Shown: positions 3,775 through 57,935 of the stretch, piece after piece
Numbering within the stretch: the stretch's first letter is position 1
How the letters are laid out: each line of letters begins with the position of its first letter
NCBI RefSeq assembly: GCF_009689005.1
Contig: NZ_AP021879.1
Location: forward strand, 744,001-808,000
DNA length: 64,000 bases
Direction of reading: 5' to 3'
Source: Desulfosarcina ovata subsp. ovata
GTDB taxonomy: Bacteria > Desulfobacterota > Desulfobacteria > Desulfobacterales > Desulfosarcinaceae
The notes under the pieces: generated by a model
The model's input: the letters and a program-made list of their open reading frames with translations, nothing else
Told to the model about the DNA's origin: nothing
Database searches by the model: none
Made by a program: the position numbers and the translations under genes

Positions 3775-5520
3775 ATGAAATTCCATCTGTTTAAAAGAAA
3801 GCAAATTCCCCGAAAAATCGAGCTTGACGATCTGGCGCGCGCCTTCTGGCAGGATTCACCCATCGATAAAGCCTTCTTTGAAGAACCCGATCATGGCCAT
3901 CCATCAACGGCACCGGACTGGAAAACCGATGCGGTCCGGGATTTCTGGCTCCAATACATCCGGCCCTTCAAAAAAACCATAACAGCACCGGTATTGAAGA
4001 CCATCCAGAACCTGTTGATGGAACTGGAAACCATGGCGCCCTGTCCGTCGGTATCGCAAGCAGACGATGAGATCCCCCGACAATACCTGGCATTGTCGGG
4101 CATCGCTTTGATGGACCACGCCTTGAATGTCAGCCGGGAGGCGGTCGATCTGTTGAAGGCCAAGGAAAACGATTTTCAGATGCGTGTGGGCAAACTCCTG
4201 ATCGCGGCTCTGACCCACGATGTGGGCAAACACCCGTCCGCACGGATTGCCCATATGCCCCATTCCTATAACAGCGCCATGTGGCTTCAGCAACGCATCG
4301 GGCATTTAAAAGACAGAGAACAGATCATCGAAGCGGTTCGACTTCACCATGCCGGCGGCGGTTCATGCAAAACCGCACCTGCCAATCCCATCCTGTCCAT
4401 CCTGATGCAGGCCGACCGGATTGCCCGGCAAAAAGAGCTGGCCAATCTGGCTTTCGAAAAGCAAAGGCAACATTCCGGCAATCAGGAGCGGCAGCATTTA
4501 CCGGAGAACAGGATGAGAAGCGATTCGGACCATGGTGAGGAAAAAGAGGCGCATTGGTTCTCCAAAGAGATGTTCCTGGAGGATCTGCACTCACAGATCA
4601 GCGTCATGGGGTTTGACGCATTCCGCCATAAAGGTCGTGCCTACTTCTCGCCATCTATCATAAAAGGCGCGCTCAATCGCCTCAGGCGGCAGCGCGGCCT
4701 TTCCGATATCCGTTCGGGAGCCCAGATCCGGAAGATCCTATCAATGCATGTGCCGGAGGTCGCCAATGAAAAATGCCGGCTGCGGTTCAAGCAGAATTTC
4801 AAACCCATGAAAAGGTGGTTCTATATTTTCCCGGCATCATTGTTAGGCGCATCGGAGAAGACCGACCCGGACATCCCCAGGGACCGGAAAGGCCGATGGT
4901 TAAAGGGCATCGACCGGATTCAGGCACAACCCAACCAATGTCCCGAAACGAAATCCCTGCGGTTCCGGGACAAACAAGGTGAGAAAATGAAAACCGTCCT
5001 GTCGATCGTTCTGTTTTTGTCGACCGCCGTTTCTTATTCGCATGCGCTTGCCAGGGACACGGCTGCGGCCACGCACATCATCGGGCAGAAGAACCGTCAG
5101 CATGAATACGGGCCAGCAAGGGGGATGGAAAGGCCTGCCTATGTGATTACACCAACGGCTGCTGCCGCCAAGGCCGCCACGTCCCGCATACGGCAAAACA
5201 GGCCTGATCGTCCCGTCAAGAAGACTTTTGTCATCTATTTCGATTTCGGTTCCAGCGAACTTGAGCGATCCCAGAAGCAAAAGCTTTACCGGCTTGCCAC
5301 TATTATCGGTAACCGGCCGGCAGTCAGCGTAACCGGATATACCTGCCCGACGGGGCCGTTTGAAGCCAACCGACGATTGGCCCGGGAACGGGCGCAAACG
5401 GTCGCAACCTGGCTCAAAGAGCACGGCATCGAGGTGCGGCAGGCCGCGGGCAGACCCGAATGCTGCTATGTCTCCGATACCCGGCCGGCCGAAAACCGAA
5501 GAGTGGAAATCGTCTTTTAA
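3775..5520 (+). CDS. HD-domain protein fused in frame to signal-anchor and OmpA-like domain
   Basis: The 581-residue reading frame joins two unlike halves. Residues about 100-195 carry an HD-type metal-dependent phosphohydrolase signature: MDHALNVS (His115), LTHDVGKHP (His148-Asp149) and VRLHH (191-192). At residue 405 there is a Met preceded by AAGGTGAG, followed by a typical signal peptide (MKTVLSIVLFLSTAV to the ALA cleavage-like site). Residues about 485-581 form an OmpA-like peptidoglycan-binding domain (FDFGSS, the TGYTCPTG turn, NRRLARERA, ENRRVEIVF). It may be a single membrane-spanning protein with HD domain inside and OmpA domain in the periplasm, or a frame that also makes a separate exported OmpA protein from the internal start at 4987. 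The HD half is a paralog of the protein at 55271-56623. A relaxase-like (MobH) role is possible but unproven. Confidence 0.72.
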   Translation: MKFHLFKRKQIPRKIELDDLARAFWQDSPIDKAFFEEPDHGHPSTAPDWKTDAVRDFWLQYIRPFKKTITAPVLKTIQNLLMELETMAPCPSVSQADDEIPRQYLALSGIALMDHALNVSREAVDLLKAKENDFQMRVGKLLIAALTHDVGKHPSARIAHMPHSYNSAMWLQQRIGHLKDREQIIEAVRLHHAGGGSCKTAPANPILSILMQADRIARQKELANLAFEKQRQHSGNQERQHLPENRMRSDSDHGEEKEAHWFSKEMFLEDLHSQISVMGFDAFRHKGRAYFSPSIIKGALNRLRRQRGLSDIRSGAQIRKILSMHVPEVANEKCRLRFKQNFKPMKRWFYIFPASLLGASEKTDPDIPRDRKGRWLKGIDRIQAQPNQCPETKSLRFRDKQGEKMKTVLSIVLFLSTAVSYSHALARDTAAATHIIGQKNRQHEYGPARGMERPAYVITPTAAAAKAATSRIRQNRPDRPVKKTFVIYFDFGSSELERSQKQKLYRLATIIGNRPAVSVTGYTCPTGPFEANRRLARERAQTVATWLKEHGIEVRQAAGRPECCYVSDTRPAENRRVEIVF

Positions 5521-5556: not shown

Positions 5557-5883
5557 ATGTCCCGATTCACAGAAACGATGAAAAAGGCCAGCGCAAAAAA
5601 GAATCTGATCATCACGGCGGGCATTGTCCTGGGCAGCGCCGCATCGGCGGCGGCCATCACCGCGCCGACCGGTCCCACGGACTTTGCCTGGGATGTGTAT
5701 GACATCGGCGTCAACAGAATCCTGAACGGTCCCATCGGTTTTGTCGCCGGCGCCGGCGCCATGGTGGCCGGGGCCGTGGCCGCCATTCAGCAGAAGATCG
5801 CCATGGCTGCACTCGCGATTCTCGGCGGGGCGGTGCTGCTCAATGCCGATTCGATGATCACCAGTCTCGGAATGGTTTTTTAA
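5557..5883 (+). CDS. traA: TraA/VirB2-like conjugative pilin precursor
   Basis: The 108-residue protein has a basic N-terminus, a hydrophobic leader ending in an Ala-rich ASAAA site, and two further hydrophobic segments in the mature part (GFVAGAGAMVAGAVAA and AMAALAILGGAVLL) with a short polar loop (QQK). That is the layout of F-type and VirB2 pilins: cleaved, inserted in the inner membrane with two helices, then polymerised into the pilus. A strong AAAAGGAGG precedes the ATG, as expected for a highly made subunit. It stands directly before traL-traE-traK-traB, the normal MPF-F order. No residues diagnostic for N-acetylation or cyclisation can be judged. Confidence 0.85.
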   Translation: MSRFTETMKKASAKKNLIITAGIVLGSAASAAAITAPTGPTDFAWDVYDIGVNRILNGPIGFVAGAGAMVAGAVAAIQQKIAMAALAILGGAVLLNADSMITSLGMVF

Positions 5884-5894
5884 AGGAGCGCGAA

Positions 5895-6161
5895 ATGGCA
5901 GAAAGGTTCCCGCAATACTTGTCCGCACCCGTGCAGGTGCTCTGGTTCGAAACCGACGAGCTGGCCATCATCATCCTGTTTTTCCTGCTGGCCTCCATCT
6001 TTCACGGTGTTTTGTGGATATTGTGCATTGCGGGACCCTTTGCCTATTCAAGCCTCAAGAACAGGTATCCGTCCAGCTTTCTTATGCACATGCTCTATTT
6101 TTCTGGAATCAAGCGCTTGAAAAATTATCCCACTTCCTTTGCCAACACTTTTTCCGAATGA
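5895..6161 (+). CDS. traL: Conjugal transfer protein TraL
   Basis: The 88-residue protein matches TraL in size and pattern: a short amphipathic N-terminus (FPQYLSAPVQVLWFETDE), a hydrophobic hairpin (AIIILFFLLASIF...VLWILCIAGPFAY) and a basic C-terminal tail with NRYPSSF. TraL is a small inner-membrane protein of the pilus-assembly complex, the MPF-F counterpart of VirB3. The start ATG has TAAAGGAG at good spacing. Its stop overlaps the traE start (ATGA), so translation is coupled. Position between traA and traE supports the call. Confidence 0.88.
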   Translation: MAERFPQYLSAPVQVLWFETDELAIIILFFLLASIFHGVLWILCIAGPFAYSSLKNRYPSSFLMHMLYFSGIKRLKNYPTSFANTFSE

Positions 6162-6727
6162 CGGCCATGCACATTAAAAAATTCATAAACAAATTCGACA
6201 ACCTGAAGGCAGAAAACAGACTGCTCAAATTCGTGATCATCGTCATCGGCATCGGATGCGTCGTCTCCTCGATCCTGTCGCTGCAGGCCGTAAAGTACCA
6301 GAAGGTGATCATCCTGCCGCCGGCGGTGGACAAACGCATTGTTATCCGGGGCAGCAGCGTGAACGCGGAATATATCGAGCTGTTCTCAAAATATGCCATG
6401 GGGCTGCTGCTGAACTACACCCCCAGGATTTACGACGACCAGATCAATGACCTGCTCAAACTCACCTCGCCCGGGTACTATCCGGCCCTGAACCGCAAAC
6501 TGATCGAGATGAAGGAGAATGTGAAACGGCTTGCCATCACCAGCATGTTCTATCCGCACATCCTTCGCATCAATCAGGAAAAACAGGAGATCAAAATCCT
6601 GGGGCTGCGGATTCAGACCGCCCGAAGCCAGGAGATCGAGCGCGAGGAAAAAATCTACATGCTCAACTATCAAATGATCAACGGGAGATTCTATGTCGAT
6701 GGCATCCAGGAGATCGAAAAAAAGTAA
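6158..6727 (+). CDS. traE: Conjugal transfer protein TraE (VirB5/VirB8-like inner-membrane component)
   Basis: 189 residues, the usual TraE length. A charged cytoplasmic N-terminus (residues 1-25) is followed by one transmembrane helix (FVIIVIGIGCVVSSILSL), then a periplasmic domain with the family's VIILPP, YIELFSKYAMGLLLNYTP and YPALNRKL segments. TraE is a bitopic protein of the mating-pair-formation complex. The start is the ATG that overlaps the traL stop; a longer in-frame reading back to 6014 lies inside traL and is ignored. Its 3' end overlaps the traK start by 35 bases, so the operon is tightly coupled. Confidence 0.88.
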   Translation: MTAMHIKKFINKFDNLKAENRLLKFVIIVIGIGCVVSSILSLQAVKYQKVIILPPAVDKRIVIRGSSVNAEYIELFSKYAMGLLLNYTPRIYDDQINDLLKLTSPGYYPALNRKLIEMKENVKRLAITSMFYPHILRINQEKQEIKILGLRIQTARSQEIEREEKIYMLNYQMINGRFYVDGIQEIEKK

Positions 6728-7973
6728 ACCCCGGCTTATCTGGTTTCTGCTGGCGCTGTTGGCACCGGTTTATGCGGTTGCCAGTCCGCAGAGCGGGCAG
6801 ACCCGGTATTGGATCCGGATTGCCGACAAACAGGACAACCTGGCCGCTGTCCATGATCTTATGGCCGGCCTGTCCGATGAAATCGAAAAAGACGAACTTC
6901 GCATCTGTATGGACAACAGTGAATATGTGCTGGTTCATACCGGCGCCGCGGATCCGGATGCGGCCTTTTTGATCAGGGAGAAAGTTTCCCAGCATCTGGG
7001 CGCCAAGGTTCATACGGCCATCGTCCATTATGATCCGGCCCAGTGCTTTGCCACCGCCCACTTTTTGAAAAAGGCGGCCGGGAAAACACCCCCGCCCATG
7101 CCGACGACGGCCGCAAAACAGCAAAAGGCCCCCAAATCCCGTCCATCGGTTCATATCTATCCGGACATCGCCGGACACACCCGAAAAAAGGGCGGCAGAC
7201 TCGAGACCACCGACCATGCGACGGTGCTGTCCAAATCCATGGTCCAGGTCCTGCCCGAACTTTCCACCCAGGTTTATCTGAGCAATCTGGATATCAACAG
7301 GGTCACCTGCATGGGCAACCGGCCGGTCAAGGATGTGGTCTTCTCCGCTGAAAAGGGCGTCACCGCAAAAATCAACGGCAGCAACGCGTTTATCAAGCTT
7401 CAGATGCACCGGGACAATCCGTCCGTAAAACCCCAAGCCGTCGAGGATCCGGTGGAGCTGTACGTGGTGTGCGGAAGCGCCGGCGATGTGTACACCGTTA
7501 TCGGAGTCCCCAAAAAGATACCGGCCCAATGGATCCAGCTGGTTTCGAAAACCGGGGATGTCAAAAGGAACCTGTCTCTGTTCGAGGGCAAAGACTTTGA
7601 AAAAAAGGTCGTTACCCTCGTCAAGCAGGCCTGGACGGGAGAATATCCCGATTCATACGCCATCGAAGATATTGACCGCCGCCTGACGATAGAGGGCCTG
7701 GCGTGGCTCGACATCACCCTACGCCGGACGGTGGATGTCGATGGCGAGGGGTTTCGCATCAAGGAGTATGCGCTGCTTGTAAGCGATAACGCGGCTGAAG
7801 CGCATTACGGCATCCGTGAAAAGCAGTTTGTGCTGCCCCGGTTGTCCGAACATCCTTTGGCCATCACCCTCGACGGCCTGATTGTCCGGAAAGAAACGCC
7901 AACCCGCCTGTTTATCGTTGAACGATCGGAACAAGAGCCGCGCATCGGCATCGGCAGGCCGACCACCAAGTAG
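6693..7973 (+). CDS. traK: Conjugal transfer secretin-like protein TraK, with N-terminal extension
   Basis: TraK is the VirB9-like outer-membrane-associated ring protein of the F-type core complex. A signal peptide is visible (basic SRRSKKSK, hydrophobic LIWFLLALLAPVYA). The C-terminal 230 residues show the TraK pattern: VYLSNLDINRVTCMGNRPV, KLYV-like PVELYVVCG, then VPKKIPAQWIQL and an IPxRL-like tail. At 426 residues it is far longer than F TraK (about 240). The extra part (about 35-150) contains YWIRIADKQDN and IREKVSQHLG, which looks like a SPOR-type peptidoglycan-binding fold, followed by a Pro/Lys linker. That extra domain is an inference. The ATG follows GGGAG and lies inside the end of traE. 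Confidence 0.84.
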   Translation: MSMASRRSKKSKPRLIWFLLALLAPVYAVASPQSGQTRYWIRIADKQDNLAAVHDLMAGLSDEIEKDELRICMDNSEYVLVHTGAADPDAAFLIREKVSQHLGAKVHTAIVHYDPAQCFATAHFLKKAAGKTPPPMPTTAAKQQKAPKSRPSVHIYPDIAGHTRKKGGRLETTDHATVLSKSMVQVLPELSTQVYLSNLDINRVTCMGNRPVKDVVFSAEKGVTAKINGSNAFIKLQMHRDNPSVKPQAVEDPVELYVVCGSAGDVYTVIGVPKKIPAQWIQLVSKTGDVKRNLSLFEGKDFEKKVVTLVKQAWTGEYPDSYAIEDIDRRLTIEGLAWLDITLRRTVDVDGEGFRIKEYALLVSDNAAEAHYGIREKQFVLPRLSEHPLAITLDGLIVRKETPTRLFIVERSEQEPRIGIGRPTTK

Positions 7974-7985
7974 AGGCAATTTCTC

Positions 7986-9320
7986 ATGAAAGAATTCAAC
8001 AATGCAGACCAGATCAAAGATCCCGGCAGAGCAGGCACCCTGAAAGCCAGATTTGCCGCCTTGCATCCGGACACCAAAAGAAAGGCCGCCACCGGCGTCA
8101 TCATTGCCGGACTGATGAGCCTGTTTGTCGTCGGCTACTACCTTAAGCGGCAGGAACCGGTTGAGGAAAGCGCCGAAGCGCCCGTCGAAGAGGTCCGCAT
8201 GGATCAAAACGTGCTCGAAAAGTCCCTTTATGCCAAGACCGAAAAGCTTCTGGTGGCCCAGAAGAAAGAGACCGAAGCGCTGAAAAAGGCCATCAAGGCC
8301 ATCCGGTATACCCTTGAGCAAAACCCCCAGATTGTCCAGGTACCGGTCCCGGAAAAAGAGGTCCCCAAAGAGCCGACGCCCAAAGAAAACGACATTGCCA
8401 TACCCGAACCGCCGCCCATGGAAAACAAGGCCGCCGGCGATGGGGTCCCGAAAAATCTTTTTAACACCATTGCCCCGCCTGTGCCCCGGGATGCCGGTGC
8501 GGCCCGGTTTGTCGGGGGCATCGAGATGATTCAGGTCGATCTGGCCCGGCCGGATGAGAAGACGACGGCTGGCAATAAAAAAAAACAGATCTATTTGCCC
8601 CCTTCTTTCATGGCGGCGACGCTGCTTTCGGGAGTGGCCGCGCCCACGACCAACGCCGCCAAGGCCAATCCCCTGCCGCTTCTATTCCGGGTAAAGGACC
8701 TGGCCGTGCTTCCCAATAAGGTCAAGGCCAACCTGAAAGGGTGTTTCGTCATCGGATCGGGCATCGGCAACCTGGCCGACGAGCGGGTCCACATCCGACT
8801 GACCACCTTGTCGTGCGTGGCCAAAAACGGCGACGCGGTCATCGATCAGGAGGTCAAAGGCTTTGTGGTGGACGAGGACGGCAAAGTGGGGCTCAAGGGC
8901 CGGGTGGTGGCCAAGATGGGGGTCCATATCGCCCGCACGGCCCTGGCCGGGTTTATCGGCGGCATGGGAGAGGCCCTGGGCGATTCGACTCGGACAAACA
9001 CCCTCAGCGCCCTGGGACAAACCCAGTCCACGTTTACCAGCACGGATGCGGAAAACATCGCCAAAGCCGGCCTCGGAGAAGGCATATCGTCGGCCACCAA
9101 AGAACTGCAGAAATTTTACCTGCAACTGGCCGAACAGACCCTGCCGGTCATCGAGATCGGCTCCACCAAGGATGTGACCCTAGTCGTCAGCGAAGGCGCC
9201 GGCCTTAACATCATGGAAAAAGGACAAAACGATGCTGCCAAAAATGACGATGCCCCTGTGCATCCTTTTGCTGGGCTGCCTTTTATGCGCATGCCAATCG
9301 GTGTTCAACCCGTACGATGA
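7986..9320 (+). CDS. traB: Conjugal transfer protein TraB (VirB10-like)
   Basis: 444 residues with the VirB10/TraB plan: cytoplasmic N-terminus, one transmembrane helix (about 36-51, ATGVIIAGLMSLFVVGYYL), a coiled-coil segment (about 75-105, KTEKLLVAQKKETEALKKAIKAI), a Pro-rich periplasmic spacer, and the TraB beta-barrel domain with LPPSFMAATLLSGVAAPT, LKGCFVIGSGIGNLADERV and the Gly-rich GFIGGMGEALGDS antenna region. TraB spans from the inner membrane to the outer-membrane channel and senses TraD/TraC activity. GAGGCAATT precedes the ATG. The last 89 bases are shared with traV in another frame, a longer overlap than usual. Confidence 0.9.
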   Translation: MKEFNNADQIKDPGRAGTLKARFAALHPDTKRKAATGVIIAGLMSLFVVGYYLKRQEPVEESAEAPVEEVRMDQNVLEKSLYAKTEKLLVAQKKETEALKKAIKAIRYTLEQNPQIVQVPVPEKEVPKEPTPKENDIAIPEPPPMENKAAGDGVPKNLFNTIAPPVPRDAGAARFVGGIEMIQVDLARPDEKTTAGNKKKQIYLPPSFMAATLLSGVAAPTTNAAKANPLPLLFRVKDLAVLPNKVKANLKGCFVIGSGIGNLADERVHIRLTTLSCVAKNGDAVIDQEVKGFVVDEDGKVGLKGRVVAKMGVHIARTALAGFIGGMGEALGDSTRTNTLSALGQTQSTFTSTDAENIAKAGLGEGISSATKELQKFYLQLAEQTLPVIEIGSTKDVTLVVSEGAGLNIMEKGQNDAAKNDDAPVHPFAGLPFMRMPIGVQPVR

Positions 9321-9708
9321 CGCGTTTCAATGCCCTGACGTGGATGAAGGCACCTGCACCGGCATACCCGATGCCTATCGCCGGAGTCTCGATGAAAACC
9401 CGCCGGCGGATCTCCCATGCGATGACTGCACGGCTGCCGTGGAAAATGACATGCCGGACGAATCCGGGCAGGCAACGCCCGCCGATGCCAGGCGCATCTA
9501 TCTGCAAAAACGATTCGAAAAGCTCCGCGCCCTGATCGCAGACGACCACCCGCCCATTGTGGTGCCTCCGGAAGTGGTCAGGGTCCTGGTGCTGTCCTAT
9601 ACGGGCAACGAAAACGAGATGTTCGGATTCCGGTACATCTACTTTTTCGCAACCGAGCCTGCCTGGCTGTTGTCCACCACCATTGAAGAGAATCCGGGAG
9701 ACGATTGA
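9232..9708 (+). CDS. traV: Conjugal transfer lipoprotein TraV
   Basis: 158 residues with a lipoprotein signal peptide (PLCILLLGCLLCAC; lipobox L-L-C-A-C, lipidation at the Cys near residue 19-21), followed by a Cys-rich mature part (CPDVDEGTC, CDDC) and a C-terminal segment PPEVVRVLVLSYTGNEN, which is typical of TraV. TraV is the VirB7-like outer-membrane lipoprotein that anchors the TraB/TraK ring. The start ATG has AAAAGGAC upstream and lies 89 bases inside traB. The stop overlaps the traC start (ATTGATG). Cysteine richness suggests disulfide bonds with TraK or TraN. Confidence 0.85.
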   Translation: MLPKMTMPLCILLLGCLLCACQSVFNPYDDAFQCPDVDEGTCTGIPDAYRRSLDENPPADLPCDDCTAAVENDMPDESGQATPADARRIYLQKRFEKLRALIADDHPPIVVPPEVVRVLVLSYTGNENEMFGFRYIYFFATEPAWLLSTTIEENPGDD

Positions 9709-12227
9709 TGGGATTGAGAAAAATGATATTCGGCACCCACGGCATGACCCATGACGATATTTCCAAGATGACCTTCAGGACGCAGTTTTCCGAGTTTTTG
9801 CCCTACAGGGCCTATGATCCTGAAAGCCGGTGCTACCATAACATGGACGAATCCATCGGTTTCCTATGGGAATGCGTGCCCCTGGTGCACGCCGATGACC
9901 AGATCTTCGATATCCTTAGCGGCCTGCTGAACTCGGTGTTTCCCGAAGGCACGGTCCTGCAGTTCATCCTGTACGCCGACCCACATATCAAGCCGGCCAT
10001 GGATGAATACCGGCGCATCAAGATCAGGAGCAACGAATTGTCGGAAAAGACCACCGGCAACACCGCGGACTTTTTCATATCCGGATCCAAGGGGGTCGAT
10101 AAGCTGCGGGGAACTCCGGTAAGAAACTTCAGGCTGTTCGTGGCGCTGAAGCTTCCCAAAGATAAAAAGGACAGGATTAACTACCTGGACATCAGAGACA
10201 GCGTCCATGAAACCTTGAAGGGCATCTACCTGTCCCCCCGGCTGATCGCACCGGACGTGCTCATATCCATGCTTTCCAAGGTGTTCAACGGCACCGCACA
10301 CGAAACCCGCGGCTATGACACCAACCGCGAGATCAACAGGCAGATCATCCTGAGCGAAACGCCGGTCAGGTCCAAATGGGACCGGATTCTTCTGGGCGAC
10401 AAACACCTGCGCTGCATGACCGTAAAAAAGATGGTGGACCAGGTGGACGATCTGACCTTCAATTATCTGACCGGAGATATCTGGGGCGTTCAAGGGGACA
10501 ACAACCAGATCAACGTGCCGTACCTGTTCACCGTCAATGTCATCTTCTCCCCCCTGGCCGCCAAGCTGCACGCCAAGTGCAATTTCGTGCTCCAGCAGCA
10601 GGGCGTGGGCAGTTTCGCGCCCTCCCTGCAGCGCAAAAAGGACGAATACATGTGGGCCACGGGCCAGATCGAGCAGGGGGTCAGCTTCGTTCGCATCATG
10701 CCCATGCTCTGGCATTTTGCCGATTCGGAGCAGCAATCCCGGGAGGCGGCCGCCCGGGTCAAACGCATCTGGCAGTCCCGGGGGTTCGTGATCCAGGAAG
10801 ACCGCGGAATTTTGAAAATCATGTGGCTGGCCGCCTTGCCCTTTGGCCTGTACACCCATGACCGGGCGGTGGACTATATCGACCGGGATTTTATCTGCCA
10901 GCCCAAGGTGGCCGCCCGGTGCCTGCCCATCCAGGCGGACTTCAGCGGGGGCTGTGCGCCGTACAATCTGTTTGTGGGCCGCAAGGGCCAGTTGATCAGT
11001 TTTGACCTGTTCGCGCCGGTTTCCGAGAATTTCAACGCCCTGATTACCGCCACCAGCGGTTCCGGAAAAAGCTTTCTGACCAATTCGATCTGTTACAACT
11101 ACTACACGGCCGGTTCGCTGATCCGGATCGTCGATATCGGCGGCAGCTATAAAAAGCTGTGCAACATCGTCGGCGGCAAGTTCGTCAACTTTTCCAAGCA
11201 GTCCGACATCCGGCTCAACCCCTTTACCAACATCATCGATATCGACGAGAGCATCCAGGCGGTCAGCGCCATCATCGCCCAGATGATCTATTCCACCAGC
11301 CGGCAGGTGCCCACCGAGACCGAGATCACCCTGATTAAAAACGCCGCCTTGAATTCTTTCCACGAACACGGCAACGACGCCGATATCGACCGGGTATACG
11401 AGTACCTGAAAGAGCCCTCCAAAACATCCGAAGAGCTGCTGGATCTCGAGTGCGGCGAGGACAACTCCTGCATCAAGGATATCAAGACCCTGTCGGCCCA
11501 GCTGGCCTTTAACCTGAGAAATTTTACCTCCCTGGGCAATCTGGGGGTATGGTTCAACGGACCGGCCAACCTGGATATCGCCCATGACGATTTCGTGGTG
11601 CTGGAACTCGAGGAGCTCAAATCCCAGACGGAGCTGTTCAACGTGGTGACCCTCCAGCTCCTGAACTATGTCACCGAAAACCTCTACCTTTCCGACCGGT
11701 CCCAGCGGCGGCTGGTGATATTCGACGAGGCCTGGCAGTTTTTCTCCGGAAACGGCAGCAATACCGGCGAGACCAGCCTTCTGGCCCGGATCATCGTGGA
11801 AGGCTACCGGCGCGCCAGAAAATATGGCGGCAGTTTCATCACCATCACCCAGTCGCTGCTGGACCTTGCCATGTTCGGCGACGTGGGCCAGGTGATCCTG
11901 TCCAACTCGGCCTATAAATTCCTGCTGCAGTCGGCGGATTTTGAAAAGGCGCGGTCGAAAAAGCTCATCGACTATTCCGACTTCGTCATGAAACTGCTCA
12001 AAAGCATCCGCAGTCCCAAACCCAGGTACTCGGAGATCTTTATCGACAGCCCGGTGGGCATGGGCATTGCCCGGCTGCTGGTGGACCCGTTCTCCTATTA
12101 TCTGTACACCTCAGCGGCGGAAGAAAACGCGATGATTGAAAAGCTGGTCCAAAAGGGGCTTTCCTATCCGGAGGCATTCGGGAAAATGATGGCCCTGGAA
12201 AAGGATGCCGACACAAGCGGGTTTTGA
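9708..12227 (+). CDS. traC: Type IV secretion ATPase TraC (VirB4 family)
   Basis: 839 residues, near the usual TraC length (about 875). The N-terminal TraC/VirB4 domain (about 1-400) begins with SKMTFRTQFSEFLPYRAYD. The ATPase part has Walker A TATSGSGKSF (about 447-456) and Walker B RLVIFDEAWQF (about 667-677), then SNSAYKFLLQS and the conserved C-terminal motif region. It hydrolyses ATP to energise pilus assembly at the inner-membrane base. The ATG at 9708 overlaps the traV stop; a TTG one codon earlier is not needed. A long open frame on the opposite strand (9864-11585) is only a GC-driven shadow. Confidence 0.93.
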   Translation: MGLRKMIFGTHGMTHDDISKMTFRTQFSEFLPYRAYDPESRCYHNMDESIGFLWECVPLVHADDQIFDILSGLLNSVFPEGTVLQFILYADPHIKPAMDEYRRIKIRSNELSEKTTGNTADFFISGSKGVDKLRGTPVRNFRLFVALKLPKDKKDRINYLDIRDSVHETLKGIYLSPRLIAPDVLISMLSKVFNGTAHETRGYDTNREINRQIILSETPVRSKWDRILLGDKHLRCMTVKKMVDQVDDLTFNYLTGDIWGVQGDNNQINVPYLFTVNVIFSPLAAKLHAKCNFVLQQQGVGSFAPSLQRKKDEYMWATGQIEQGVSFVRIMPMLWHFADSEQQSREAAARVKRIWQSRGFVIQEDRGILKIMWLAALPFGLYTHDRAVDYIDRDFICQPKVAARCLPIQADFSGGCAPYNLFVGRKGQLISFDLFAPVSENFNALITATSGSGKSFLTNSICYNYYTAGSLIRIVDIGGSYKKLCNIVGGKFVNFSKQSDIRLNPFTNIIDIDESIQAVSAIIAQMIYSTSRQVPTETEITLIKNAALNSFHEHGNDADIDRVYEYLKEPSKTSEELLDLECGEDNSCIKDIKTLSAQLAFNLRNFTSLGNLGVWFNGPANLDIAHDDFVVLELEELKSQTELFNVVTLQLLNYVTENLYLSDRSQRRLVIFDEAWQFFSGNGSNTGETSLLARIIVEGYRRARKYGGSFITITQSLLDLAMFGDVGQVILSNSAYKFLLQSADFEKARSKKLIDYSDFVMKLLKSIRSPKPRYSEIFIDSPVGMGIARLLVDPFSYYLYTSAAEENAMIEKLVQKGLSYPEAFGKMMALEKDADTSGF

Positions 12228-16700: not shown

Positions 16701-17431
16701 ATGTCCGCCATTTGAAAAACGGCGAGACGATGGCCTTTCAAGATGCAAACGGAACCCTGAACCTGGTATCCGGTGAGATCCGGTCCAAAGGGGTCATGCA
16801 GGATATCTCCGGCACACTGGACAATGGCCGTGCCGTGAGCTTTCGGTACAATACGGTCACCGGTGAGATCACCGACAGAGACATCAGCCAGAATGTGAAC
16901 TTCAAGCCCGATGAAGCCTACCGGAATTTGTACGATAAATCCCATGGCAACATGCTTAAATTCTATGACCTGAACGATGAGGCCACCCGGCTGGCATTTG
17001 TCAACAACATGGCCCGAACGGTAGGCAATATTATCGGCGTTGATGAAATAAAAGCTATTGGTGGTAGAGGAGGCCTCGGGGCCTCTATCGGTAAACCCGG
17101 AGGCAAAAAGGGGTTTGGCCTATCCGGCGGAATGGAGCTGTCGCACTCCAACCGCCAGCAAATCAATCAGATCGGCGCATCGTTGCTCCATGCAATCGAG
17201 GAGTCCGAGGATCAATCCGGGTATGTGGATTATGAAAAAGCCGATGCATTGTTGAGAAACGAATGCGATGGCCTTACAAAACGGGGGTATAAGTCCGGCC
17301 GAATCGGTTTGACAAAAAATGCTCACGACGGGCAAGCGGCAAGGGAGCACCATCAGGAAAAATTTGATCAATTAATGGAGCAGATTTTGCCGCAGTCAAC
17401 GAGAAAAAGCGGAAAGCCTGCCGATGCATGA
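13763..17431 (+). CDS. traG: Conjugal transfer protein TraG (mating-pair stabilisation)
   Basis: 1222 residues, longer than F TraG (938). It starts with a signal-like hydrophobic segment and has several transmembrane helices in the N-terminal half (about 45-70, 90-105, 370-395, 405-425, 470-490), typical of TraG. The C-terminal 700 residues are periplasmic or cytoplasmic helical sequence with repeated Ala/Gln/Ser-rich segments and a late beta-rich part (VRHLKNGETMAFQ, DGYQVVYKDPDTGK). TraG is needed for pilus assembly and mating-pair stabilisation and can carry the exclusion-specificity determinant in F and SXT. Its start is 13 bp after traH. It is the last gene of the left transfer block; the small minus-strand gene after it is convergent. 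The long C-terminal expansion has no assigned function. Confidence 0.88.
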   Translation: MRRIVYIILFAVIPSGAFAAVPASLQVITVQGGFDVYAHTFRRLALIMSDAGYNNLFFTFIVIGIFIAGCIVISRSVFEGRARATSWVSWIGTIIFGLIIFKTFIEPRSDLVIFDETNNQSITIGGVPDGVIFIAGLAKKIENGLIHIIETSGSPDSFIDNPGGVTFNIFAKAFAQGVDMSGTGTTGSYLNTNLRNYVNDCLFFEISRPGTTLTLDQINVNTDFIPIFSQASNPAVFTIYRDNANPTGATSSCFSAWSQIQAELAAMTDVSTANQKYWTERCLRAGYNHNVTGAAGPDMVTLCRTKAADLLSNARMLGVVVTSSQLMRQHLMASELYGALQEANPDNAIKVTSSMNMGNRLVGAGIAAGDWMPHMQAMLFAIFVGIMPFFLILAATPFYARMLSFIMGAFVFFIAWGVCDALLHEFAMDKAIDIMTEIKDGQLGLKSFLLFQSDAMKAYACFAQYKVMSIMFASIFAGVLTRIGGSMWARTLTSPGGQMASAGAGAAMEAIDPSKSAGRKSNLTESVPTQVLHNSYGMANQARAALYGKQTEYRTKDAAVKAFGGQMANAGAAATRMSAANLTHLKEKVSHSDAVLKWGNAHGLSNDDTIQMTQDYMQHSTASSALAMNKIAQGYNISAMEALDFGKHVQAETGYGNALGVEKAFRSAQTDGFDGTMADYQSMRADIDSRKGFLTAETVEKMAGSYFGGNTNRLLRHEAQYSQSQTAGMLHSLRQHRVTPQEVGEALGRARSFEAIAKQDHLFAAGDNTYFRTQSAQLYDAAAKHLKRTAMEEIASDGYLSKQTRSNIKAMLATDMGSAQLRAQGGLETTIRGEKEASHFGQFLKSQGVDVQGRDIIGAKARMNMYLDNDGNLKTGFVAVNKGTVITSQDYREHKGALTRDQARDLGLSREGFYSIKSSANGETALFVHGESGRAFTQSNMHVEKDSADGYQVVYKDPDTGKTGYVLLSKGSETRDVASHVRHLKNGETMAFQDANGTLNLVSGEIRSKGVMQDISGTLDNGRAVSFRYNTVTGEITDRDISQNVNFKPDEAYRNLYDKSHGNMLKFYDLNDEATRLAFVNNMARTVGNIIGVDEIKAIGGRGGLGASIGKPGGKKGFGLSGGMELSHSNRQQINQIGASLLHAIEESEDQSGYVDYEKADALLRNECDGLTKRGYKSGRIGLTKNAHDGQAAREHHQEKFDQLMEQILPQSTRKSGKPADA

Positions 17432-17459
17432 ATTGCGTGCTTTAGATGAACCATGCGGG

Positions 17460-17687
17460 TTATTTGTCCAGAGGGCGGCATGGAATTTCTGACGATGGGG
17501 TATCCGATAATCCGGATGCGAAATTCAGCCATTTATGCCCATCTTCGTATGAATCGATCCACGTATTGTCATCCTGATCCGGCCCTTTCTTCTCGGAGGC
17601 CGGTTCGGCATGGCTTTTCTTCTCAATCATAATGAAAACCGCCACGATACAGTAGATGACGATCAAAGTGGTCAGTATCGTTCCCAT
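17460..17687 (-). CDS. Small single-pass membrane protein, unknown function
   Basis: 75 residues with one N-terminal transmembrane helix (about 3-20, TILTTLIVIYCIVAVFIMI) and a polar acidic cytoplasmic or periplasmic tail (SEKKGPDQDDN, YEDGHKW). The ATG has GAGGAT eight bases upstream, and a plausible minus-strand promoter lies just beyond at 17740-17768. It converges with traG, the stops being 28 bp apart. I recognise no family; a surface- or entry-exclusion-type role next to traG would fit the position, but this is only suggested by location. Confidence 0.55.
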   Translation of the reverse strand: MGTILTTLIVIYCIVAVFIMIEKKSHAEPASEKKGPDQDDNTWIDSYEDGHKWLNFASGLSDTPSSEIPCRPLDK

Positions 17688-17739
17688 GTCTTTATATCCT
17701 CTAAACGCCTATCCAGGCTAAGCGCATTAATTTTTTTAA

Positions 17740-17768
17740 AGCATAGCATCATCACTTCGAGTGTTCAA
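17740..17768 (-). promoter_or_regulatory. Possible promoter for the small membrane-protein gene
   Basis: On the minus strand: -35 TTGAAC (17763-17768), 17-bp spacer, -10 TATGCT (17740-17745) with an upstream TG extension. It would start transcription about 40 bases before the gene ending at 17460. Both hexamers match consensus at 4 of 6 positions, so this is tentative. Confidence 0.35.
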
Positions 17769-17800
17769 GACTAACCCATATCATCCACAACCTCCATGAA

Positions 17801-17810
17801 TTGCTATAAT
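17801..17810 (+). promoter_or_regulatory. Possible extended -10 promoter for the BREX operon
   Basis: The 433-bp gap between the small membrane gene and the BREX regulator (17688-18120) is AT-rich and non-coding. It holds an extended -10 element TTGCTATAAT with a perfect TATAAT (17805-17810) but no good -35 box. A second candidate further down has a perfect TTGACA (about 17963-17968) without a convincing -10. Either could start the BREX transcript, leaving a 150-300 base leader. I saw no clear operator palindrome. Confidence 0.35.
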
Positions 17811-18120
17811 TTATTGTTCTGCCTCATTAATATTATGTAAATAGTGGGGAAAACGTTAATATAAATGAAGGGGGCCTGTGATAACACAAAAGAATTTCGA
17901 TGCATTGCCCTGCTAACAACTTTAAATCTCAATATCATCCCAAGAAATCGTCCATAATAGTTTGACATTTAAATCATGTTAAGTCTATTCATTGCCAGTT
18001 TCTACTGGTTACTCTGGCTATGGTTTGTACGCCAGATGTCCCTGACTTTCCAACAATCCGTTGTTATTCGCTATAGGTGTCGCTATCGCTTGAAAGCGTC
18101 CCTTTGCACTTGGAGTGGCT

Positions 18121-24437: not shown

Positions 24438-25144
24438 TGCGCCCGGTGATTCGCGGCAACCACCCCACAGACGGCCAGGGAAATGATATTGTTTTCAATC
24501 ATTATTCCAAATCCCGTGGCCCCCTCATCGGGCGTATTGGCGAGTATTGCTCCTATTGCGAGATGCATCTTGATTCGTCCCTGGCGGTAGAGCATGTAAA
24601 ACCGAAAAAGCACAATCCCGAAGAAGAATTGCATTGGGACAATTTCCTTCTTTCCTGTACCAACTGCAACTCTACCAAGGGCCAGGAAGACGTAGATTTA
24701 AATGAGTATCTATGGCCGGATACGGATAACACGTTCTACGCTCTGCAATACGAGGAGGGTGGGTTGGTTTCGCCATCGGACAGACTGAACGGCAACCCCG
24801 CACTGAAACAAAAAGCGCAAGATACAATCACGTTGACGGGATTGGACAAACAGCCCGTCAACGCCCCTGCAGCTTCAGACCGGCGATGGATCAACCGGCG
24901 GGAAGCATGGGATATCGCTGTGGAATCCAAGAGTGACCTTGTAAACAACGATACCCCGGAAATGAGAAGGCAAATCATTCGGTCCGCAACAGCGAGAGGG
25001 TACTGGAGCATCTGGATGACTGTTTTCGAAGATGATGCCGATATGCGGCGGCGGTTGATTGAAGGCTTTCCTGGGACCTGCAACGCTTGTTTTGACGCTA
25101 ACAACGGGTATGCTCCGGTTTCGCGTGAAGGAGGCCAATGCTGA
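24437..25144 (+). CDS. ptuB: HNH endonuclease, Septu PtuB-type
   Basis: 235 residues. The N-terminal 85 residues hold an HNH nuclease with zinc-binding cysteines: EYCSYCEMHL (Cys38, Cys41), VEHVKPK (His53), WDNFLLSCTNCNSTKG (Asn69, Cys74, Cys77). The rest is helical and could bind the ATPase. It would cut DNA (or tRNA, as some retron PtuB do) once released by the ATPase. The ATG overlaps the ATPase stop, and its own end overlaps the pglX start by 7 bases, so the pair has been built into the BREX operon without breaking coupling. Confidence 0.84.
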   Translation: MRPVIRGNHPTDGQGNDIVFNHYSKSRGPLIGRIGEYCSYCEMHLDSSLAVEHVKPKKHNPEEELHWDNFLLSCTNCNSTKGQEDVDLNEYLWPDTDNTFYALQYEEGGLVSPSDRLNGNPALKQKAQDTITLTGLDKQPVNAPAASDRRWINRREAWDIAVESKSDLVNNDTPEMRRQIIRSATARGYWSIWMTVFEDDADMRRRLIEGFPGTCNACFDANNGYAPVSREGGQC

Positions 25145-28100
25145 TGCAGCCCCTTGAAAAATCGCTTAGAAATAATCTGGAAAAAACGATCAGGGAGGCC
25201 CGCGACTTTGCCGAAGAAGCAGCACGTGTGGCGCTTGAGCAGCTTGGCGTGGGGGAATCGAAAGCCTATCCCCATCTATCGGATGATGACCGAAAGTTGC
25301 GTCGCAGGCTTCGCGCACATGGACGTCAGCTTGGAGATGGACGCAATGCCAAAGGTGAACAGGGCATCGATAGGCTCATTGAAGAGGTGGCCTATGAGCA
25401 TTGGCACCGTATGCTTTTTGCCCGTTTCTTGGCTGAAAACAACCTGCTCATGTATCCGGACCCGGATGATCCCGTGGCGATCACCCTCGAAGAGTGTGAA
25501 GACCTCGCCGCCGATGAAGACGCTGCTAACGGCTGGGAACTGGCCGCCCGTTTTGCCGCCCGAATGCTTCCGCAGATTTTCCGGCTGGACTCCCCGGTGT
25601 TCCAACTGGAGTTGCCGCCGGAGCATCAGCAAAAACTGGAGCGGTTGGTTGCCGATCTGGCTTTGGAGGTATTCATCGCATCAGACAGTCTCGGCTGGGT
25701 CTATCAGTTCTGGCAGGTCAAGAAAAAGGATGAGGTCAACGCCTCCGAGGTCAAGATTGGAGCACGGGAACTGCATGCAGTGACTCAACTTTTTACCGAG
25801 CCCTACATGGTCAGCTTCTTACTCGACAACTCATTAGGAGCATGGTGGGCGAAACACAAACTATCTGAAGAAGATCTTCGAAATGCCAAAACTGAAGAAG
25901 ATCTTCGAAGGAAAGTTGCCATCCAAGGTGTACCATTGGACTATCTGCGCTTTATTAGGCAAAAAGACAGTACTTGGTCGCCTGCAACAGATACCTTCGA
26001 ACGCTGGCCAGAGAATTTAAGTGAGCTAAAAATTATAGACCCCTGCTGTGGTTCAGGACATTTCCTCGTTGCAGCCTTCCATATGTTAGTACCGATGAGA
26101 ATGGAGTTGGAAAACCTTTCAGCACACGACGCAATCGATTCTGTCCTCAAGCATAATTTAATTGGTTTAGAAGTGGATAGCCGCTGCGTTGAACTGGCTG
26201 CATTCTCTTTGGCTCTTTCCGCCTGGACCTATTTAGGAGCATCTAACTTCAGACCTCTTCCAAAGCTGAATGTTGCCTGTTCTGGCTTGTCAATCAGTGC
26301 AAAAAGAGAGGAATGGCTTAATTTAGTAGGCGATAATACAAACATTCGATTAACAATGGAAAAAACCTATGAGCTGTTTAAAAATGCCCCAGTATTGGGT
26401 AGCCTTATAAATCCGAAGTCTGAAGTTTTAAATGAGTCGCTTTTTGATATGGATTGGGAACATTTAGAACCGTTATTGGCTCATACTTCCGCTGGGAACA
26501 AAGATGATGAAAAAAAGGAATTGAGTGTTGTAGCAAGAGGAATATCATCGGCTACACGACTTTTAAACGGACAATATCACTTGGTCATCACGAATGTTCC
26601 TTATCTATCAAGAAATAAACAAGATGAAACACTAAGAAAATATTGTGAAAGGAATTACAAAGACGCAAAAAATGATCTCTCAACTGTTTTTCTTGAGCGT
26701 TGCATAGAATACGCGAATGACAATGGCACTATTGCCATTGTCATTCCTCACAATTGGATGTTTCTTACAAGTTATAAGAATCTCAGAAAAAAATTACTTC
26801 GTCGTTGTACTTGGAATATCATTGGTAGACTCGGTTTCGCCGCATTTGAAATTATGGACTGGTGGGCCTTTGATACAAGTTTAATTATTAAAAGTAAGCG
26901 CAAGGCGAACAACGACTCAAAAATTATTGGGATCGATGCTTCAGAATCAAGGCAGTGTGAAACAAAGGCTCACTATTTACGAACTGAACCAATTAAATGC
27001 GTTGGTCAAGCCAATCAGCTAAATAATCCCGATGCCAGGGTCATGCTTGATATTGAAAATACTGGAAAACTTGTTGAGTATTATGCTTCGTCAAGAACGG
27101 GCCTTCAAACGGGAGATAATGATAGATTTTCCTTCCTTTTTTGGGAATTTATGAAGATTGATAATCCTTGGGTGTCGTTCCAACGAACTGCAGATGAAAC
27201 TGATTTCTTTAAAGGAATGTATCAAGTATTAAGATGGAACGGTGATGGGAAAGAATTGAGGGATCAAAAGGGCTCTGCACTAAGGGGTTTAGATTGCTGC
27301 GGGAGAAGTGGGGTTCTGGTTCATAGAATGAATAGATTACCAGTAACTCTATATTCTGGTGAAATTTTTGATCAGAACGGAGCGGTAATTATCCCCAAAA
27401 AAAAGGAATATTTTTTGCCTCTTTGGTGCTATCTTTCCTCTGATGACTATTATACTGAAGTAAGGAAGCTTGATAGTAAAGTTGGTGTCACGCCTGCAAC
27501 ACTTGCGAAAGTCCAATTCAATTATGATTATTGGGAAAAAATTTCGCAAGAGAAATTTCCGAATGGTCTCCCTGAACCCTATTCTGATGACCCAACTCAA
27601 TGGATTTTTCATGGCCATCCTGCTATAAGCGGTGAACCATTACATGTAGCAGTAGCTCGCCTGTTAGGTTATCGCTGGCCTGCGGAGTTTAACCCTAAGA
27701 TCAGACTTTCCGATAAAGCGAAGCTTTTAGTTGAAGAATCGAAACTACTAACTGCAAAGGCTGACGGTGACGGCATTGTCTGCATTCCACCAGTACGAGG
27801 TGAAATGAAAGTTGTAGATAGACTGGAAGAAATGTTAGCCGCTGCCTATGGAAGTAAATGGTCGGCAATTATGAGGGCTGAACTTCTTTCAAAAGCAGAG
27901 CACTCCGGCAAAAGTTTGGAAACATGGATTCGAGACAAATTTTTTATTCAACATTGCAGACTTTTTCACCAACGTCCTTTTATCTGGCACATATGGGATG
28001 GTCTAAGCGATGGTTTTGCTGCCTTGATAAATTATCATAAGCTTAATTTTAAGCTGCTGGAAACACTAATTTATACATATCTGGGAGATTGGATTAGTCG

Positions 28101-28491
28101 CCAAAAACGGGATATAGAAAACGGTGTGGACGGTGCCCACGAAAAACTTGCAGCTGCAGAATCTTTAAAAAAGAAACTGGAATTAATTTTAGATGGCGAA
28201 GCCCCTCATGATGTTTATGTCCGCTGGAAACCTCTTGAAAATCAGCCCATCGGTTGGAATCCAGACCTTAATGATGGGGTGCGCCGGAATATTCGACCGT
28301 TTATGACTGTTGGCGATGTTAAAAAGAAAGGGGCCGGCGTACTCAGGGATAAGCCAAACATCAAATGGGGGAAAGACCGGGGTAAGGACGCGAGCTCCGC
28401 GCCCTGGTATCACCTTTTCAAGGGAGATCGCATCAATGACCACCATTTAACCCTGAAGGAAAAGCAGGAAGCTCAGAAAAACAGGAAGTAA
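25138..28491 (+). CDS. pglX: BREX adenine-specific DNA methyltransferase PglX, full length
   Basis: 1117 residues, normal for type I PglX. SAM-binding motif I DPCCGSGHF lies at 301-309; the catalytic motif is NVPY (486-489) in place of the common NPPY. The C-terminal 450 residues should hold the target-recognition domain and the second specificity lobe. PglX methylates one strand of a 5-6 bp site to mark self DNA. The ATG follows AAGGAGG and overlaps ptuB. Base composition is uneven: roughly 25140-25850 is GC-rich like the neighbours, about 25860-28200 is clearly AT-richer, and the last 250 bases are GC-rich again. That suggests replacement of the central and C-terminal part by recombination. 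N-terminal 300 residues are very close to the second copy at 28499. Confidence 0.93.
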   Translation: MLMQPLEKSLRNNLEKTIREARDFAEEAARVALEQLGVGESKAYPHLSDDDRKLRRRLRAHGRQLGDGRNAKGEQGIDRLIEEVAYEHWHRMLFARFLAENNLLMYPDPDDPVAITLEECEDLAADEDAANGWELAARFAARMLPQIFRLDSPVFQLELPPEHQQKLERLVADLALEVFIASDSLGWVYQFWQVKKKDEVNASEVKIGARELHAVTQLFTEPYMVSFLLDNSLGAWWAKHKLSEEDLRNAKTEEDLRRKVAIQGVPLDYLRFIRQKDSTWSPATDTFERWPENLSELKIIDPCCGSGHFLVAAFHMLVPMRMELENLSAHDAIDSVLKHNLIGLEVDSRCVELAAFSLALSAWTYLGASNFRPLPKLNVACSGLSISAKREEWLNLVGDNTNIRLTMEKTYELFKNAPVLGSLINPKSEVLNESLFDMDWEHLEPLLAHTSAGNKDDEKKELSVVARGISSATRLLNGQYHLVITNVPYLSRNKQDETLRKYCERNYKDAKNDLSTVFLERCIEYANDNGTIAIVIPHNWMFLTSYKNLRKKLLRRCTWNIIGRLGFAAFEIMDWWAFDTSLIIKSKRKANNDSKIIGIDASESRQCETKAHYLRTEPIKCVGQANQLNNPDARVMLDIENTGKLVEYYASSRTGLQTGDNDRFSFLFWEFMKIDNPWVSFQRTADETDFFKGMYQVLRWNGDGKELRDQKGSALRGLDCCGRSGVLVHRMNRLPVTLYSGEIFDQNGAVIIPKKKEYFLPLWCYLSSDDYYTEVRKLDSKVGVTPATLAKVQFNYDYWEKISQEKFPNGLPEPYSDDPTQWIFHGHPAISGEPLHVAVARLLGYRWPAEFNPKIRLSDKAKLLVEESKLLTAKADGDGIVCIPPVRGEMKVVDRLEEMLAAAYGSKWSAIMRAELLSKAEHSGKSLETWIRDKFFIQHCRLFHQRPFIWHIWDGLSDGFAALINYHKLNFKLLETLIYTYLGDWISRQKRDIENGVDGAHEKLAAAESLKKKLELILDGEAPHDVYVRWKPLENQPIGWNPDLNDGVRRNIRPFMTVGDVKKKGAGVLRDKPNIKWGKDRGKDASSAPWYHLFKGDRINDHHLTLKEKQEAQKNRK
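25867..25909 (+). repeat. Exact 16-bp direct repeat inside pglX
   Basis: GAAGAAGATCTTCGAA occurs at 25867-25882 and again at 25894-25909, a period of 27 bases (nine codons), encoding EEDLRNAKT then EEDLRRK. Each copy contains the palindrome GAAGATCTTC. The repeat lies where pglX changes from GC-rich to AT-rich sequence. The second PglX has a similar but inexact protein repeat here, so the doubling is older than the exact nucleotide match. Confidence 0.85.
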
Positions 28492-51586: not shown

Positions 51587-51619
51587 ATACCCATCCGTTA
51601 GAAAAGAAAGGACAATCAA

Positions 51620-52369: not shown

Positions 52370-52373
52370 AGAG

Positions 52374-52826: not shown

Positions 52827-52876
52827 GCCTTTCCCCGTTCACCGTCGTTCCAGGGGTCGATGCAGGGAGGCAAATC

Positions 52877-53149: not shown

Positions 53150-53161
53150 GGATTCGGAATC

Positions 53162-53911: not shown

Positions 53912-53920
53912 AAGGCAGGT

Positions 53921-55261: not shown

Positions 55262-55270
55262 GACTCGGCC

Positions 55271-56623
55271 ATGGGCTTTTTGGCAACTCTTTCCTTTTGG
55301 GACAAAATATGGATGGCTCTGGGGCTGGCCGGTCTATTGCTGCTGTTGATCCGGTTTCATTTCAAACTTGCCAGAAAGGAGAAGGATGCACTCATACGCA
55401 TCGATCGGTTTATGGACACCCGCATGACGGGCCAATCGGACAACCATCCGTGCGCCATGGATCATGATTCCCAGTGCTTGAAATGGAAGCATCCCGACAT
55501 CGGGATGTTTTACAAGGGATATGTCGAGCCGTACACACAATTGCTCCGGCGGATCGATGCGCTTGATACGGTCGTCGACCTTCTCGCCTTGCTGGACGCT
55601 GAAGGCCATTGCCCTTCCATCGCCGGACGCGGCCATCAACACGGCCCGGCCGACAAACCAGCCGATCTGGAAGCGTCACGGTGGCAATCCGTCCGGCATA
55701 ATGCCTATGCCATCCTGCACGAAAATGTGTCCCTTCGCGAACACAGCCTCAATGTGGCCTCGATGGTCGTTGAACAGCGAAAAAAAGGGGGCAGGGATTT
55801 CCAGATGGAGCTGGGGCGTCTTCTCATCGTCTCGTTGGGGCATGATATCGGCAAGATTCCCGGAAAATCGAAAGGCCATGCGGCCAAGGACCACTGCATG
55901 GCTTCCCGGGATGTCCTCGACGGGATGTTGCCGGCCGACTACCCGTCCCGGGACGAAATTCTGGCAGCTGTGCGGGACCATCATTTTTCTTCCGCATCGG
56001 GCGGCGCTTTGCTGAACCATCTGAAAACGGCGGATCATAAAGCCAGACAAATGGAGCTGAAAAAATACGGCTGCGAGGCAACCATCGCTCCGTCGTTCTT
56101 TAAAACCGCAGCGAGTCATCCAACAAAACCCGATCGGGCCTCTCAAAAACCCCGCTACGCTTCCGTCGATCTTTCCTGGCTTGAGCTTTCGCAGCTACTG
56201 CAGCTTGTAGCCGCCAGAATCAATGTGGTGGAAAAGGGAAAATATGAGGCCTTCTCGCATGCCGGCATGGTTTATGTCTATCCGCGTCTACTGGCGCAGT
56301 GCGCCTGCCATCTGGCCATGCAGGCCGGCCGTATGGAGGTCGTCGCCCACATGGCCACGGAAGAGAAGATGGAAGCCTTGATGTACGCCATTCGAAAGGC
56401 CCTGGAGGAACACGTTCCGGACAAACTGATCGGAGCCGGGTACATCGGACGGAAATTTCAGATTGCATCCGGAAACGGCGACTGCATGAACCCCGGTTTT
56501 TACCTGCCGTTGAAAATTTCGGCATTTACACCGGCGAGTCCCTCGGAAATCGAAAAACGCAAACAAGGTGTTTCCCTGCTTCAATCCATCCAGAGTGTAT
56601 CCATTTATTATCCCGATTCCTGA
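55271..56623 (+). CDS. Membrane-anchored HD-domain protein, candidate MobH/TraI_2-like
   Basis: 450 residues. One transmembrane helix near the N-terminus (about 14-29, ALGLAGLLLLLIRFHF), then an HD domain with LREHSLNVASM (His158), VSLGHDIGKIPG (His191-Asp192) and AVRDHHF (His237-His238). The C-terminal 180 residues include a winged-like DLSWLELSQLLQLV and YEAFSHAGMVYVYPRLL. It is a paralog of the HD half of the 3775-5520 protein: same order of motifs and spacing, and the same FYKGYVEPY-type region before them. MobH relaxases (TraI of SXT/R27) have an HD fold and sit beside traD, as here, but the match is not strong enough to call it a relaxase. A cyclic-nucleotide phosphodiesterase is the alternative. 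Confidence 0.62.
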   Translation: MGFLATLSFWDKIWMALGLAGLLLLLIRFHFKLARKEKDALIRIDRFMDTRMTGQSDNHPCAMDHDSQCLKWKHPDIGMFYKGYVEPYTQLLRRIDALDTVVDLLALLDAEGHCPSIAGRGHQHGPADKPADLEASRWQSVRHNAYAILHENVSLREHSLNVASMVVEQRKKGGRDFQMELGRLLIVSLGHDIGKIPGKSKGHAAKDHCMASRDVLDGMLPADYPSRDEILAAVRDHHFSSASGGALLNHLKTADHKARQMELKKYGCEATIAPSFFKTAASHPTKPDRASQKPRYASVDLSWLELSQLLQLVAARINVVEKGKYEAFSHAGMVYVYPRLLAQCACHLAMQAGRMEVVAHMATEEKMEALMYAIRKALEEHVPDKLIGAGYIGRKFQIASGNGDCMNPGFYLPLKISAFTPASPSEIEKRKQGVSLLQSIQSVSIYYPDS

Positions 56624-57900: not shown

Positions 57901-57935
57901 AGGCAGCCAAACCATTATCCTATCGAAGCGTCGCC

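Follow-up and report, generated by a model that had tools for sequence, protein, structure and literature searches.

Relaxases of the MOBH type and OmpA-type components of type IV secretion are the described proteins with which the present locus can be compared. The MOBH relaxase TraI is described as having three parts, namely an HD domain, a disordered middle and a globular domain at the C-terminus (PMC12857230). In the Dot/Icm system, DotK and Lpg0657 are reported as OmpA-type folds of the type IV secretion outer-membrane complex that are without several key peptidoglycan-contact residues (PMC7511231). For one frame with two products, Cas11 is described as arising by internal initiation within cas8 or cas10 (PMC11899642); there Cas11 is part of the frame of the large subunit and without export signal, whereas the OmpA part of the frame analysed here is a separate gene in relatives and has its own signal peptide. 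DotK and Lpg0657 differ in belonging to another secretion system type and in being unlinked to an HD protein.

The locus lies in a 64,000-nt stretch of the Desulfosarcina ovata subsp. ovata genome (the window). A single open frame leads here from an HD-domain protein through 22 linker codons to Met405 with a signal peptide and on to an OmpA domain, upstream of F-type transfer genes. G154 in the list is the closest relative.

3775..5520, + strand: fused open frame, 581 codons, without internal stop
3775..4920, + strand: HD gene part, residues 1-382; the separate 382-aa genes of G154 (L061, L062) end at aligned codon 382
4114..4428, + strand: HD domain, Pfam PF01966, residues 114-218, H / HD / H / H / D motif intact
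4543..4920, + strand: globular domain at the C-terminus of the HD half, closest in structure to 2ipq (DUF1528), suggestive only
4921..4986, + strand: linker of 22 codons where relatives have a stop and spacer; its first codon is sense, against TGA in G154
4976..4983, + strand: Shine-Dalgarno-like AAGGTGAG, 3 nt upstream of the ATG, -6.9 kcal/mol, weak evidence alone
4987..5052, + strand: internal start codon (Met405) and predicted signal peptide MKTVLSIVLFLSTAVSYSHALA, from the equivalent starts of relatives; the peptide and its cleavage site were assigned by eye
4987..5520, + strand: OmpA-family gene part, 177 codons and stop, homologous to the separate OmpA genes of relatives
5236..5442, + strand: OmpA domain, Pfam PF00691, residues 488-556, GYTC against G-[YH]-T-D in solved relatives
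5557..12227, + strand: downstream F-type genes TraA, TraL, TraE, TraK, TraB, TraV and TraC (NCBIfam; TraA by position)
55271..56623, + strand: HD2, a paralogous HD protein encoded directly after TraD, with a hydrophobic stretch at its N-terminus

The in-frame joining of HD domain, signal peptide and OmpA domain noticed in the initial annotation was confirmed, as the 581 codons are free of stops, Met405 (ATG at 4987) follows AAGGTGAG and both domains score above their curated Pfam cut-offs. PF01966 was matched with E 2e-6 (28.5 bits, cut-off 22), which places the frame in the HD superfamily, and PF00691 with E 2.1e-10 (41.2 bits, cut-off 27.2). Among the downstream genes, NCBIfam detected TraL above cut-off and TraE, TraK, TraB, TraV and TraC below it (E from 5e-5 to 3e-153); NCBIfam gave no match for TraA, which was named from its position and its hydrophobic, pilin-like look. 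TraH, TraG_N, TraN and TraU of the element lie above their Pfam cut-offs, identifying the operon as F-type. The order HD, OmpA, TraA, TraL, TraE, TraK, TraB, TraV, TraC recurs in related F-type operons, and by sequence comparison the fused frame represents a local variation on an otherwise ordinary operon of this type. The initial annotation knew of no such arrangement among tra proteins; HD and OmpA proteins proved to be recurring neighbours upstream of traA, a pair that was not found in the literature searched on HD domains and OmpA in F-type systems. A simpler arrangement is found on the Bermanella plasmid pBma45 (L027), where an OmpA-family gene lies upstream of traL and beside TraL, TraE, TraK, TraB, TraV and TraC as in the window, but with no HD gene before it.

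Whole-ORF protein searches covered 60 relatives, 389 genomes of the class, 395 of the phylum, 30 of the family and 290 of the order around G154, and a further search used only the HD half against 389 genomes of the order; these sets overlap strongly, and the large searches scored a few candidates per genome. Among the candidates scored, the only whole-length match outside the own genome was obtained in G154, a Desulfosudis oleivorans MAG, and it runs through one TGA. Larger stretches were then taken around selected loci, and tra genes were mapped in 38 sources. Upstream-type HD genes were found at 11 mapped loci in 9 other genomes, none of them fused (0/11). The search for homologs with the two halves as separate genes, proposed in the initial annotation, returned 8 loci in 7 other genomes where HD and OmpA genes are directly adjacent (two in G154, one each in G092, G077, G159, G074, G075 and G110); the OmpA gene is followed by TraA, except in G075, which has no TraA match and TraL next. 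In G052, a short signal-peptide ORF without OmpA domain overlaps the HD gene in the OmpA position, and neither of two G144 loci with an HD gene has an OmpA match, a regulator-like gene being next in one of them. In G591, G666, G740, G613 and G563, an OmpA gene precedes TraA but has no HD gene immediately before it. Left out of the 11 loci were G250 (L077; an unfused 236-aa ORF whose stretch contains no further tra match), G077:C1:877151 (unmapped, its open frame being listed at 230 aa), L086, which is a remnant in the own genome, and the HD2-type genes beside TraD (G154 L063 and L064, G331, G077 L070, G100, G727, G738 and G740; G331:C296 is unmapped, with a listed open frame of 480 aa). Of the OmpA matches, G448 (L079) lies within a 999-aa frame in a stretch without tra match, and G611 and G612 on contigs of about 5 kb without tra match.

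On the proteins of relatives, Pfam gave OmpA above cut-off in 5/6 tested and HD in 3/4, the OmpA set being without the G077 and G074 proteins but including the look-alike G159. The exception is the G110 pair (OmpA 24.8 bits vs 27.2, no HD match), which rests on phmmer matches. The HD motif residues are invariant in 10 aligned HD proteins, HD2 among them, and the HD proteins of G077, G159 and G074 have 214-218 aa, without the C-terminal part. Among plasmids, 169 records matched and none covered at least 80% of the fused protein; a plasmid DNA search gave no match, and three scans of viral contigs (whole protein, HD alignment, OmpA alignment) gave no relative. Genome contig scans yielded nothing with the HD half and two loci with an alignment, both of the Desulfosudis MAG.

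G154 resembles the window in the position of its HD gene, in the next OmpA gene with its own signal peptide and in the downstream order TraA, TraL, TraE, TraK, TraB, TraV, TraC, TraH, TraG (L061, L062, L097, L098). It differs in having two genes, with a stop after residue 382 and a gap of 24-25 nt. The G154 HD proteins are 49-51% identical to that of the window, and their stop aligns with window codon 383, a sense codon from which 66 nt lead in frame to the OmpA start. At G154 locus 1 the HD gene ends with TGA, 24 nt before OmpA in the same frame, and at locus 2 with TGA, 25 nt before OmpA in another frame; spacers in same and other frame indicate that the two proteins are truly separate. In G092, the junction is TAG with a gap of 36 nt in the same frame; this locus had been listed in the genome search as a stop-free 591-aa frame, and translation revealed the one stop. 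The genes overlap by 41 nt in G077, G159 and G074, taking the first possible start, and by 1 nt and 17 nt in G075 and G110. A stop just before the OmpA start, which the initial annotation had named as counting against its reading if seen in homologous elements, is present at both G154 loci and in G092. At the other five loci with separate genes, the HD gene runs into the start region of OmpA and ends there in a different frame. The single stop in one frame between the genes at G154 locus 1 and in G092 suggested that read-through of a stop codon might be ancestral; this was rejected because the genes of G154 locus 2 are in different frames.

The fused frame most likely arose secondarily, through the joining of two ordinary neighbouring genes. 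We consider it probable that the stop between two adjacent F-type genes was lost in this lineage and that one mRNA gives two products, with the start at Met405 retained. Ancestrally, the HD and OmpA genes would have been separated by a stop and a short spacer, or would have shared a short overlap; with the stop absent in this lineage, the spacer is now read in frame. The OmpA gene has kept its start codon and signal peptide together with a ribosome-binding site of its own, and ribosomes initiating at Met405 would still produce the periplasmic OmpA protein of the ancestral gene, a probable structural component of the envelope-spanning transfer channel. Translation from codon 1 would no longer end after residue 382 but would continue into OmpA, adding a tail to the HD protein, which would be cytoplasmic and perhaps relaxase-like. 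The continuous frame, the separate genes of relatives, the recurring gene order, the intact HD motif and the retained signal peptide are observed, whereas we infer the direction of change, initiation at Met405, what becomes of the long product and what the two proteins do. An in-frame stop was absent in 45% of trials with random 66-nt stretches (first-order model of the window), so that the fusion would be cheap, given a lost stop and a fitting phase. A second fused lineage was not found; selection on the joined form is therefore not measurable, and drift, function and error are indistinguishable from sequence alone. With this reading, a puzzling domain fusion becomes a readable event, in which a neighbouring gene pair would have fused with both sets of signals surviving, and it warns that the domain architecture of one genome does not equal function.

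To support the retained start at Met405, homology weighs more than the local sequence signals. When the ORF was scanned for hydrophobicity with three window lengths, the top three windows for each length fell inside residues 405-427, MKTVLSIVLFLSTAVSYSHALAR, and the predicted signal peptide between the HD and OmpA domains is of the cleavable type, with HALA before Arg (by eye). In line with two joined gene parts, the full-length model (mean pLDDT 60.6, built on only 6 sequences) has two better-folded halves, between which residues 381-486 are of low confidence. The Shine-Dalgarno energy at Met405 is the best among in-frame ATGs (-6.9 vs -5.6 at codon 1) and ranks second among 30 in-frame ATG/GTG/TTG codons, behind -10.9 for the TTG at 4153. 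Of 3000 random window positions, 4.6% reached -7 and 10.2% reached -6, and this match alone is within chance. The mRNA structure near Met405 is unremarkable, with 30% of 1000 random positions equally weak or weaker. The internal start is convincing because of its homology to the OmpA starts of relatives, not because of Shine-Dalgarno or RNA structure: the separate OmpA genes of G154 and G092 start at the equivalent Met, with the signal peptide directly after. Coupling of termination and reinitiation is reported to need very short distances (PMC10666635); as such coupling would be lost here, OmpA would need its own initiation. A stronger Shine-Dalgarno energy at Met405 than at the OmpA starts of G154 (-4.1, -4.1) and G092 (-3.2) fits own initiation, but the overlapping short ORF of G052 is nearly equal (-6.3), and the starts compared are too few for proof.

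The initial annotation had left two options, internal initiation or one protein bridging a nucleotide hydrolase and peptidoglycan; the former appears the likelier of the two and the latter is doubtful. If the full-length fusion alone were made, the HD part would be cytoplasmic, the former signal peptide a membrane helix and the OmpA part periplasmic. This is unlikely: the frame is continuous and the HD motif kept, and the full-length model shows a low-confidence helix at residues 404-431, but the genes are separate in 8/8 HD-OmpA loci of other genomes, a ribosome-binding site is kept along with a signal peptide of the cleavable type, and the OmpA half makes a peptidoglycan tether doubtful. This half has the OmpA fold (model vs 3td5_A: Z 12.6, 103 aligned, rmsd 2.7), which supports its family membership. 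AbOmpA is described to bind diaminopimelate via Asp271 and Arg286 (PMC12108004), and in PapS a change of the equivalent Arg is reported to abolish binding (PMC11369160). With columns mapped by motif, the Arg column is retained in the window protein, while the Asp column, occupied by the motif Asp in YiaD, Pal, OprF and PA0833, is Cys. The Asp plus Arg pair of peptidoglycan-binding OmpA proteins is thus predicted to be incomplete, and the Cys makes binding less likely, leaving the fold unaffected. Counted by eye over 19 aligned OmpA proteins, 13 have Cys in this column, 3 have Ser and 3 have Asp; for the 16 that lie in stretches with a tra match, the numbers are 11 Cys, 3 Ser and 2 Asp. The recurring HD-OmpA pair of F-type operons comes with an OmpA subfamily that is mostly without the peptidoglycan-contacting Asp; pBma45 differs in retaining it. 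A CC pair is found near the C-terminus of many tra-linked OmpA proteins (window 4987-5520; L061-L094).

A sequencing or assembly error could mask a stop in the linker, the genes then being separate as in relatives; we regard this as improbable. Codon 383 and 9 of the 21 linker codons after it are each one substitution away from a stop, and no other fused lineage was found in the plasmids and genome sets searched. Against an error, the spacer of 66 nt compares with 27 nt in G154 locus 1, stop included, and is thus not a single base change of that layout; moreover, the genome is a single contig of 7.63 Mb in which both copies of the element agree, although homogenised copies could share a consensus error. 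The second copy, at C1:1523404-1525146, has an identical translation and is identical over 4743/4743 nt around the fused ORF. It belongs to a shared block of 19,369 nt (window -1714 to 17654 vs C1:1530635-1511267) with an identical interior; the 97 mismatches (14 at window -2000 to -1001, 83 at 17000 to 17999, none in the ORF) lie solely in the end kilobases, and the second copy is therefore no independent confirmation of the fusion. The other element arm (50101-63737) is 97.5% identical between copies. The interior identity would reflect either homogenisation in the recent past or a consensus common to both copies. About 32 kb of cargo (window 17655-50100) is missing from the second copy, where about 1 kb lies between the arms (C1:1510247-1511267). 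The cargo encodes Eco57I/N6-type methylases (25138-28491, 28499-30400), an AIPR protein (30397-32088) and BrxL (34621-36666), and is by gene content a BREX-like defence set.

Apart from the probable two-product reading with a retained start, we give little credence to a one-frame, two-compartment device, in which the long form, a cytoplasmic relaxase-like HD protein with a membrane/OmpA tail at its C-terminus, would dock this DNA-processing protein on the transfer channel, and internal initiation within the same coding sequence would supply free periplasmic OmpA as a channel component. The nature of the HD half bears on such docking. In the full-length model its HD core matches the HD chains 9h3f and 2pq7 (Z 13.5 and 12.6). 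A second model, of the HD half alone (mean pLDDT 52, about 70-87 across the C-terminal domain), matches 9h3f with only Z 3.7. Residues 257-382 were best matched by 2ipq (Z 7.3, 107 aligned, rmsd 3.7; next row Z 5.8), a value below the safe level. Foldseek with the HD-half model gave 2ipq at E 0.29 and no match at E <= 0.001, and because of this and the mean pLDDT of 52 the likeness to DUF1528 is only suggestive. DUF1528, named in the 2ipq title, is presumably what later became TraI_2_C, the C-terminal domain of MOBH TraI. With MOBH relaxases (TraI of the gonococcal genetic island, pCAR1 MobH), the window HD half has the HD motif in common and perhaps, by weak fold comparison, a DUF1528-like C-terminal domain. 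It differs in having no TraI_2 match and in being far shorter than pCAR1 MobH (850 aa). TraI_2 (PF07514) was matched by Pfam neither in the fused frame nor in HD2, the sole match in the own genome lying elsewhere (C1:2850083), and profile comparison of HD with pCAR1 MobH was weak (probability 6.8, E 0.0053); the HD proteins are therefore not filed as MOBH. In its model the HD half bears a weak likeness to relaxase-type (MOBH) proteins, whose mode of action the HD proteins may share. Given this likeness, and a Cys where peptidoglycan binders have Asp, there is poor support for a link between a nucleotide hydrolase and peptidoglycan, one of the two options of the initial annotation.

A polyprotein that enters the membrane through its internal signal peptide, and that signal peptidase then cleaves into a membrane-tailed HD protein and free OmpA at 1:1, would suit the cleavable-type signal peptide between the domains, but is very improbable given no hint of protein-level coupling in relatives, where 5/8 loci have overlapping other-frame starts and one has an other-frame spacer.

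HD2 adjoins TraD, as does mobH in pCAR1, and is by sequence a candidate divergent relaxase. An HD protein directly 3' of TraD is recurrent in F-type elements (window 55271-56623; L026; L101). On a Nitrosophilus plasmid the gene at the HD2 position is annotated as diguanylate cyclase, and 6/7 plasmids with an HD2 match were typed non-mobilizable by MOB-suite. A third, decayed element is present in the own genome (L086, C1:1328000-1347000), in which the HD gene is cut to 207 aa, without the HD core, and the TraD matches are divided between two ORFs, 2.8 kb apart.
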